The translations under genes and the position numbers were made by a program. This document shows, in pieces, positions 7,736 to 47,120 of a stretch of DNA of 64,000 nucleotides (position 1 is the stretch's first letter; each line of letters starts with the position of its first letter). The notes beneath the pieces are model-generated. The model was not told the DNA's origin and searched no databases. It saw nothing but the letters and a program-made list of their open reading frames with translations. This DNA comes from Terriglobia bacterium (GTDB lineage: Bacteria; Acidobacteriota; Terriglobia; Terriglobales; Acidobacteriaceae). The stretch lies in NCBI GenBank assembly GCA_020073395.1, contig JAIQFF010000009.1, positions 1 through 64,000 of the forward strand, written 5' to 3'.

Positions 7736-8164
7736 TCAGCGCCACTACCTGACATTCTCAACTCACCATCGCTGGATTTTGCCTCCGGGTGCTCGCACCT
7801 TAGTTCTCGAATGTTGCATTGGGGAGATGGAACCCGCCTCACTCTGCACGGAGTTGTCGTGATGCCGGACCACGTTCATCTGGTGTTAACGGCAGCGTAC
7901 GACGGCAACATCTTCTTCAGTGTGGCGGAGATCATGCAAGGCATCAAGGGCACTTCTGCACACAAGATCAATCGTTTGCTAAATCGTAGCGGCCAGGTGT
8001 GGCAGTGTGAATCATTTGATCGAGTGCTCCGACGCAAGGAGAGCATTCAGGCGAAAGTTGAATATATGGTCCGGAATCCAGCACGGGCAGGACTGGTGCA
8101 AAACGCTTTGGAACATCGCTGGTTGTGGGTTCCGAATCTGCCAAAAGTGAGTAAAGCCAGTTAA
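7731..8164 (+). pseudogene. REP-associated tyrosine transposase (RAYT, Y1_Tnp), frameshifted
   Basis: The 117-residue frame from 7811 has the single-strand transposase core: the HUH motif in MPDHVHLVL and a downstream tyrosine in KVEYMVRNPARAG. The usual N-terminal part of this subgroup, QRHYLTFSTHHRWILPPGA, is present just upstream but in another frame, running from a GTG at 7731 to about 7817. Joining the two needs one extra base near 7814-7817, so the copy is broken by a single-base deletion (or a sequencing error). It lies between inverted REPs, the normal arrangement for a RAYT and its substrates. Without the repair, the ATG at 7811 would give a protein lacking its first strand and helix. 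Confidence 0.75.
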
Positions 8165-12459: not shown

Positions 12460-12598
12460 GTGTGGGGCGGACACTCCTGTCCGCCGCTTTTGACTTTGAC
12501 TTAAGTATTCAGCCGGTTCGTTTTCGCAGGCAAAGGAGCAAAAGGACCAAAGCAAAAACCAACTGGAAAAGCGGCGGACAGGAGTGTCCACCCCACAC
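12460..12598. repeat. Family A element 1 (139 bp, inverted hairpin ends)
   Basis: The outer ~32 bases are inverted copies of each other: GTGTGGGGCGGACACTCCTG continuing TCCGCCGCTTTT at the left (12460-12490) and its complement at the right (12567-12598), one mismatch. Each end is itself a hairpin, GGCGGACA-CTCC-TGTCCGCC, with a T-rich stretch on the inner side. The middle ~75 bases are unlike other copies. It lies between the convergent vapC and pspA and ends six bases from the pspA stop, so it could act as a two-way terminator. Confidence 0.85.
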
Positions 12599-45319: not shown

Positions 45320-45412
45320 AATGGCGACAAAACGGAACTTGTTACTGTTGGGGAACCAGGCAGAATCCGGGAGAGGAAGGTGTGGGTCGGACACTCTTGT
45401 CCGACGCCTTTG
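45320..45412 (+). pseudogene. Start of a gene truncated by a family A repeat
   Basis: AGAGGAG lies six bases before an ATG at 45320. The frame reads MATKRNLLLLGNQAESGRG and then runs into the repeat at 45380, which adds CGSDTLVRRL and a stop. The beta-strand-like beginning (RNLLLLGN) suggests a genuine gene start, perhaps PepE-like, but this is too short to assign. No continuation is found beyond 47121. Confidence 0.35.
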
Positions 45413-45451
45413 ACTTTGATTTTGGGGTCGAAATTCTCCAGAAACGCCTAA
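45380..45451. repeat. Family A element 2, left half (interrupted copy)
   Basis: GTGTGGGTCGGACACTCTTG with TCCGACGCCTTTGACTTT is the left hairpin end of a family A element. The right half is at 47028-47120. Removing the 1573-bp element between them, one TAA, and a 25-base insert in the right end leaves 140 bp, the length of the other copies. Confidence 0.75.
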
Positions 45452-45601
45452 GAGCCTCTAACAAAACCTCCCCACTTACTCCAACCCGTGTGCGTAGTCA
45501 CACTGACCAGTGACGCTTGTCACTGCAAAGATTAGTCAAAGTCCTATGCTCAACTAGGCTTGGCCTCCCCGAAGAGCAGTCCCCACCATTGGGATGCAAC
45601 A

Positions 45602-45611
45602 CCCCCCCCCC
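45602..45611. repeat. Homopolymer of ten C residues
   Basis: A C10 tract lies 37 bases before the ATG at 45649 of the orphan membrane-protein gene, inside the putative element. Such tracts slip easily; if translation began upstream (ATG-like start at 45517), the tract would be within the coding frame and could switch it. Confidence 0.6.
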
Positions 45612-45648
45612 GAGGCGAAGAGCCAACTCTAAACGAGGCACAGGTCCG

Positions 45649-46878
45649 ATGGGTGCGCATTTTGAATTGCACACACACGAATCGCTGAAAACCCCGGCAG
45701 GAACTAGGTTGCGGCAGGGTCTGGCCGCAGGACTGGTTCTGTTCTTTGCTGGTCTTGGAGTTTTTGTTTTTGCCAGACAAAGACAGCGCTATGGCCATGA
45801 ATGGACGGGCAGCATCTTGGTGGAAATCCTTATCGTTCTTGGCTGCACGTTCCTCCCAGCCGCATGGTATGGGTTCGGCTATTTCCGCCGCATACCAGAC
45901 GCTTTAGGTGGTAAGACAATCGCGCTACCTATCAGGCAGCGATGGTCAGACTATGCGCGCCTTGCCGCAGCCATCGCAGTGCTGGCAACGTGTTTAGCCT
46001 GGACCCCGATTGCAATGGGACGAGAAGAACCGACCTGGGTTTTCCTCTGCGTTCCAATATTCACTTCTATTATGGTTGCACTCGTCGCAGCCAGTGAAGG
46101 CTACCTCGTCCACACAACGCTTCAGGTCTCATCGGAAAGGGAAGAATCGGCACGGAAGTTTGTCCAGCAATGTGTCGGACGATGGGGCGGGGTCGTAGCT
46201 CGAATCCTCGGCGCCAAGCGTTCGTTGTTTTCCGGAGCAGTCCTGGTTCTGATGACGTTGTTTCTAGCCACGACGACCGACTCTTGCTTGGATAAGCCGC
46301 ACAGTGGCTACGAGGTCCTTTCTGGGAAGTCTTTCTGGATCACGGCAGAGGTGACACTCGACAAAGGCAGGCTCCAAAACGTCGTCGCTCGGGTCGGTAG
46401 GGTGGGTTACATCGTTGGCCTCGCCATCGCGATCCTCGCGCTCGCTGCTGCTGCAGCTGGACGAGCCGGCAATTCTCTCCGACGAAGCCATATTCTCGCG
46501 GTGGCCTCCGGAACCTTAGCCGTCTTCGCAGTGACCGATAATGTGTTCGGGTGGATTCGCTCGATCCATATCATGCCCCATTGGCTCAACGTCATCCTCT
46601 GGACCCTTGCCTGGATCCTGCCCGTCATGCTTTGGCGGAAGAGAGCCCACGGCCCTCATAAAGAGTGGGAGCATACGCGGATGGCTGTAATGATCTTCTA
46701 CGTCCCGTTCTTTTTTTGGTTCCTCGCCCTGCTTCCGTACACCACCGATTCGGCCACGGGCTACAGCTTCTTCCTCATTGGAACGCTCCTTCTTTGGTGG
46801 GGATTCGTTCAGAGCGCGTGGGAAGTGACACAACGAATAACAGAAGGTGTAGGAAGCGTTCTCAAGCCACAAGCCTGA
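45649..46878 (+). CDS. Orphan polytopic membrane protein, cargo of the putative element
   Basis: 409 residues from the ATG at 45649; an alternative start at 45517 would add 44 Pro/Arg-rich residues. About eight to nine hydrophobic segments (for example LAAGLVLFFAGLGVFVFA, ILVEILIVLGCTFLPAAWYG, VGLAIAILALAAAAAGRAG, AVMIFYVPFFFWFLALLP). Between the third and fifth lies a stretch with paired Cys/Asp (TTDSCLDKPHSGYEVLSGKS) probably outside the membrane. No family recognised, no catalytic motif. It is the only gene between the imperfect inverted repeats at 45452 and 47024. Confidence 0.6.
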   Translation: MGAHFELHTHESLKTPAGTRLRQGLAAGLVLFFAGLGVFVFARQRQRYGHEWTGSILVEILIVLGCTFLPAAWYGFGYFRRIPDALGGKTIALPIRQRWSDYARLAAAIAVLATCLAWTPIAMGREEPTWVFLCVPIFTSIMVALVAASEGYLVHTTLQVSSEREESARKFVQQCVGRWGGVVARILGAKRSLFSGAVLVLMTLFLATTTDSCLDKPHSGYEVLSGKSFWITAEVTLDKGRLQNVVARVGRVGYIVGLAIAILALAAAAAGRAGNSLRRSHILAVASGTLAVFAVTDNVFGWIRSIHIMPHWLNVILWTLAWILPVMLWRKRAHGPHKEWEHTRMAVMIFYVPFFFWFLALLPYTTDSATGYSFFLIGTLLLWWGFVQSAWEVTQRITEGVGSVLKPQA

Positions 46879-47027
46879 TGTGCGCTGCAAGTCTTGGTTT
46901 GCGGTCTCTCAGAACGTGACGTGAGCTCATCACCAGCCATCCAAGACCTTTTACGGGTTGCCCGTAATCTGTGCTTAAGTTGCTTCGGCAATTTCGGTTT
47001 GGAACAGGGTTTTGTTAGGTGCTCTAA

Positions 47028-47120
47028 GGCCATCGGGGAAAATCCAAGTCAAACTCTAAAGTCAAAAGCGACGGACAGAGCCTGCCCTGAGCGAAGTCGA
47101 AGGGAGTGTCCGACCCACAC
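47028..47120. repeat. Family A element 2, right half with a family E insert
   Basis: GTCAAAAGCGACGGACA (47061-47077 area) and GGAGTGTCCGACCCACAC (47103-47120) are the two sides of a family A hairpin. Their loop is expanded by about 25 bases including CTGAGCGAAGTCGAAG, a family E sequence. The arm no longer matches its partner at 45380 exactly, as expected for a long-split element. Confidence 0.7.

Follow-up and report, generated by a model that had tools for sequence, protein, structure and literature searches.

Mobile insertion cassettes (MICs) are defined by insertion sequence (IS)-type ends and a target duplication without a transposase; known examples are MIC231 of Bacillus cereus, which is moved by IS231A, and the qnrD and qnrS2 mic elements (PMC3913671). 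The element described here occupies 1.57 kb of the window, that is, of the whole 64,000-nucleotide stretch of DNA that was analysed. It resembles MICs in having IS-type inverted ends, a target-site duplication and passenger gene(s) but no transposase. Whereas MIC231 is associated with the IS231A transposase, the window element has DUF4096/IS427-like ends of the IS5 type, is flanked by TNA duplications and carries the gene for an unnamed membrane protein. The IS427 group of the IS5 family, for which two overlapping ORFs with a frameshift have been described (PMC3281130), is alike in its matching 17-bp ends and 3-bp TNA duplication. As in that group, relatives with window-type ends had a DUF4096 plus DDE_Tnp_1 transposase, often in two overlapping ORFs; however, the window element was without a transposase, and its relatives carried passengers and measured up to 15 kb, compared with ~0.85 kb. 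Passenger genes within IS ends are also found in transporter ISs (tIS; PMC9330008, PMC7986276), but these keep their transposase; six larger elements from relatives (L295, L300, L301, L303, L328 and L244) fitted this description, while the window element did not. No MIC or tIS work on the source lineage was found among the open-access papers searched.

The element spanned positions 45452–47024 (1573 bp) and had inverted 17-bp ends matching at 15 of 17 positions, with direct TAA repeats outside them, as the initial annotation had claimed. Its boundaries, in sequence order, were:

45449..45451, no strand: TAA target-site duplication, left copy (from sequence; TNA duplications flanked every sister element counted)
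45452..45468, + strand: left terminal inverted repeat GAGCCTCTAACAAAACC (from sequence; the end consensus recurs in IS5-family elements elsewhere)
47008..47024, - strand: right terminal inverted repeat GAGCACCTAACAAAACC, which reads GGTTTTGTTAGGTGCTC in sequence order (from sequence; 15/17 match to the left end)
47025..47027, no strand: TAA target-site duplication, right copy (from sequence)

When the window was searched with GAGCMYCTAACAAAACC at up to 3 mismatches, only these two ends matched, with 0.25 matches expected by chance; this pattern was derived from the window ends themselves, and the independent test was the application of TNAGAGCNNCTAACAAAACC across the family genomes. Between the ends there was a single ORF, with no transposase family, no tblastn match to a transposase and no transposase remnant seen within the 1573 bp, which agreed with the earlier reading of the element as transposase-less. 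That reading had also recommended a comparison with IS5-family transposases of the same genome and a search for further copies of the ends. No DUF4096 transposase was detected in the organism's own assembly (G000, a draft that is about 94% complete), and end matches elsewhere in this genome occurred at the 3-mismatch level only, not above the reversed control. A second copy of the 1573-bp element was not found in the same genome, in relatives or in the other collections searched, and Rfam searches of the element and of contig C13 returned nothing beyond chance.

The window element was regarded as neither an IS nor a tIS because it has no transposase: IS5 family members have their own DDE transposase, and the larger relatives combine transposase and passenger in the manner of tIS, whereas here there was a passenger only. 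It was not regarded as a MITE, these being short and non-coding, because it is 1573 bp long and contains an intact 409-aa gene. The features of a MIC were present in the form of IS-type ends, the absence of a transposase and the TAA duplication. Movement as a unit was seen in two sister elements, the window element itself being known from a single site, while a cognate transposase in the same genome, which was taken to support, not to define, a MIC, was absent from the assembly. The window element was interpreted with high confidence as a transposase-less passenger element, i.e., a MIC, with IS5-family (IS427-like) ends.

An exact search with TNAGAGCNNCTAACAAAACC returned more than 100 loci, chiefly from other phyla. 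Among these were insertion sequences of ~840–890 bp with TNA duplications, the ORFs of which matched DUF4096 (PF13340) and DDE_Tnp_1 (PF01609), usually as two frames that overlap, as well as MITEs of ~110 bp in Chitinimonas and Neisseriaceae relatives; loci L166, L096, L119 and L103 (the last from Massilia) are examples with IS5-family elements or MITEs. In the Massilia element an intact transposase was accompanied by a further ORF, which by reading resembled a methyltransferase. These loci supported the IS5-like ends and target proposed in the initial annotation, and the window ends are those of an IS5-family, IS427-like transposase (DUF4096 plus DDE_Tnp_1).

Across the bacterial family, TNAGAGCNNCTAACAAAACC with one mismatch gave 100 matches, spread over 51 of 398 genomes, whereas the reversed pattern gave 8; a search of related genomes for other copies of the ends had been recommended in the initial annotation. 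Matches with no more than one mismatch, most of which were retrieved with their surroundings from draft assemblies, served as survey seeds; the element counts are lower bounds because the seeds were limited in this way, and partner ends beyond four mismatches are missed. An inward-facing pair of ends with identical TNA on both sides was taken as a complete element. There were 16 such pairs, and 0 in reversed sequence; one of them, an 8-kb pair with one end at 4 mismatches (L306), was dropped as probable chance. Nine complete elements lacked a transposase (the window element included) and six had a transposase plus passengers, while a bare, transposase-only element was absent from the complete end pairs of the family. 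The eight transposase-less sisters, spanning 0.4–1.8 kb, were:

L211, 1811 bp: two glyoxalase-like genes
L212, 1759 bp: secreted repeat protein
L214, 1443 bp: YNCE-like beta-propeller
L213, 1014 bp: glycine-rich protein
L343, 886 bp: content not assigned
L234, 845 bp: weak DsrE-like match
L061 (1112–1517) and L310 (15686–16089), ~405 bp: a 99-aa HNH nuclease as the sole coding content; present twice in a single genome (G252)

The elements with a transposase and passengers were:

L300, 3634 bp: Ser/Thr kinase-TPR
L328, 3986 bp: kinase-like by reading
L244, 4581 bp: subtilase
L303, 5494 bp
L295, 8036 bp: winged-helix-TPR regulator and secreted proteins
L301, 14,976 bp

At 3.6–15 kb, these six transposase-bearing elements were unusually long for their IS group.

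The two-glyoxalase element (1811/1814 bp) occurred in genera g7 and g49 (L211 and L222) with 96.6% identity; similarity between the two loci stopped at the element borders, and the L222 copy was flanked by TTA/CTA. Similarly, the two copies of the HNH element were 95% identical and occupied separate sites, with TAA and TTA duplications respectively. Judged by these sequence comparisons, two transposase-less sister elements have demonstrably transposed, so that such elements are mobile, or once were, presumably with a transposase acting in trans. The trans-mobilisation suggested in the initial annotation was in this respect substantiated for sisters with such ends; for the window copy we infer it, with an IS5/IS427-type transposase as the probable agent. 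Genomes with a transposase of the end type (about 65% identity or more) were end-positive in 17 of 20 cases (Fisher p = 4e-14), a coincidence that is partly circular because the transposase elements themselves bear the ends. Passenger-only elements were also present in four genomes (G049, G195, G312 and G389) in which targeted or family-wide searches detected no transposase; therefore, such elements can reside where the enzyme is missing, although the draft state of these assemblies calls for caution.

The window copy might instead be the decayed remnant of a tIS-like element, which arrived whole with transposase and passenger and later lost the transposase, the copy itself never having moved without it. 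Larger elements with matching ends, transposase and passengers do exist in relatives, and most passenger-only elements seemed, tentatively, to pair a transposase-proximal-type with a distal-type subterminal sequence, an arrangement that may fit their descent from transposase-bearing elements. However, the 1573 bp held no trace of a transposase, both ends and the cargo were intact, and transposase-less sisters demonstrably move as such; a decayed remnant was judged rather unlikely. Interpretation as a MIC was retained, and its contents were:

45508..45525, no strand: CAGTGACGCTTGTCACTG, a palindromic CRP/FNR-like site ahead of the cargo gene
45649..46878, + strand: cargo gene for a 409-aa polytopic membrane protein, start MGAHFELH; intact ORF

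The best start for the cargo was the ATG at 45649, since its homologues open with M(G/S)(A/T)HTH..HH. The protein had ten hydrophobic segments and belonged to no Pfam family, as the initial annotation had described it; an NCBIfam match to YidC (E = 0.003, far below the cut-off) was taken as a hydrophobic chance match. G-C content at third codon positions was 0.60, against 0.73–0.78 in neighbouring genes. The designation 'orphan' was correct insofar as there was no Pfam family, but a paralogue with 36% identity was present on contig C303 of the same genome (L057), and homologues were found in a handful of relatives, none of them carrying window-type ends. The comparison with protein databases that had been recommended gave no relative in Pfam or PDB. 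The cargo belongs to a small unnamed protein family. Searches of plasmids, viral contigs, the genome_contigs collection and PDB returned no match and no solved relative, and the AlphaFold model (mean pLDDT 59) was too poor for a fold search.

The CAGTGACGCTTGTCACTG motif also occurred upstream of the cargo paralogue (on C303, as GTGACNCNTRTCACTG) and in two other places (C13 and C118). The C13 copy, also GTGACNCNTRTCACTG, adjoined a degraded IS110 transposase; a 44-bp match here (C13:10377–10420), likewise next to the degraded IS110-type transposase, was rejected as a second copy of the element, as it shared the upstream palindrome without the inverted ends. The palindrome at 45508–45525 can be guessed to be a CRP/FNR-type operator, and the cargo, with low confidence, to be a putative regulated inner-membrane protein. 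These contents bear on whether the element could be MITE-like, with a gene acquired by chance as a mere hitchhiker. Its ends are common to the ~110-bp MITEs of other phyla, but the cargo was intact, the palindrome upstream of it was conserved and it had homologues, and sister elements carried intact, recognisable genes as well, which makes a MITE-like origin improbable.

The MIC was inserted within a repeat designated 'family A', intact copies of which were present in the window at 12460, 48460 and 60945. The split of this repeat within its spacer, and the presence of 25 additional bases in its right half, were confirmed:

45380..45451, no strand: left half of the split 'family A' repeat (one REP-like arm and part of the spacer)
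47025..47120, no strand: right half of the split 'family A' repeat (inverted REP-like arm)
47078..47102, no strand: 25-bp insert (GAGCCTGCCCTGAGCGAAGTCGAAG) within the right REP-like arm (from comparison with other window copies)

The 25-bp insert contains CCCTGAGCGAAGTCGAAG, and we take it to resemble a short dispersed repeat. The 'family A' repeat consisted of two inverted arms of GTGTGGGtCGGACACTCnTGTCCG, each a GTGG-tagged hairpin; there were 274 arms genome-wide and 0 in the reversed control. Numerous contigs of the assembly terminated in such an arm. Fourteen head-to-head arm pairs, taken from the genome-wide list of arms, spanned 134–204 bp. The initial annotation had regarded the restored length of the split copy (140 bp, compared with 139, 140 and 140 bp for intact copies) as an independent check of the insertion; this argument is weak because of the range of the pairs, among which 140 or 165 bp would be equally normal. 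Eight Y1_Tnp (RAYT-type) matches were present in the genome, and the one inside the window (7826–8008) may be the partner of these REP-like repeats. The repeat was read as a probable REP pair (REPIN; compare PMC3116915) because of its GTGG-tagged hairpin arms and these eight matches.

The only same-genus genome compared, that of a sister species (G001), retained both the phoH and peptidase gene flanks with 82–85% identity, but the gap between them was 175 bp and contained neither the 'family A' repeat nor the element. The locus is insertion-variable, and the cargo no ancestral resident, because the flanks occur here without either. The exact empty site that had been sought, a repeat with one TAA, was not provided by this genome, since the flanking repeat was missing there too. 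It is very improbable that the inverted ends and TAA repeats arose by coincidence around a gene that simply resides between a pair of REP-like repeats: there is a single copy without an exact empty site, and juxtapositions are frequent with a repeat as numerous as this one (274 arms), but the two ends match a genuine IS5-type end near-perfectly and face inward with identical TNA, no such pairs occurred in reversed sequence, and the sister species has no gene at the site.

Taking the element as a MIC, its history may be reconstructed as follows. Its target would have been a TAA within the spacer of a REP pair between phoH and the peptidase gene. A DUF4096/DDE transposase supplied by a related element probably moved it in trans, recognising both 17-bp ends and generating a 3-bp (TNA) duplication. 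The insertion would have brought an intact inner-membrane-protein gene together with its own upstream region, including the CRP/FNR-like operator palindrome. The element probably originated either from a larger element with transposase and passengers that lost its transposase, or from the capture of a gene by two ends.

MICs are usually known as single cases tied to resistance or to a host enzyme. We consider it an evenly balanced proposition that a single IS5/IS427-type system serves the entire bacterial family as a platform for shuttling genes, with the window element as one satellite. This system would comprise a transposase-bearing class of 3.6–15 kb (with Ser/Thr kinase-TPR and winged-helix-TPR regulators, and secreted proteins) and single-gene satellites of 0.4–1.8 kb, which spread between genera and persist after a genome has lost the transposase. 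If true, a family-wide set with multiple cargoes and transposase-bearing kin would allow tests of gene capture by IS ends, of the survival of transposase-less elements beyond their transposase, and of the exchange of regulators and membrane proteins among uncultured lineages. It also serves as a warning that single-gene insertions in such genomes may be mobile without a nearby transposase.
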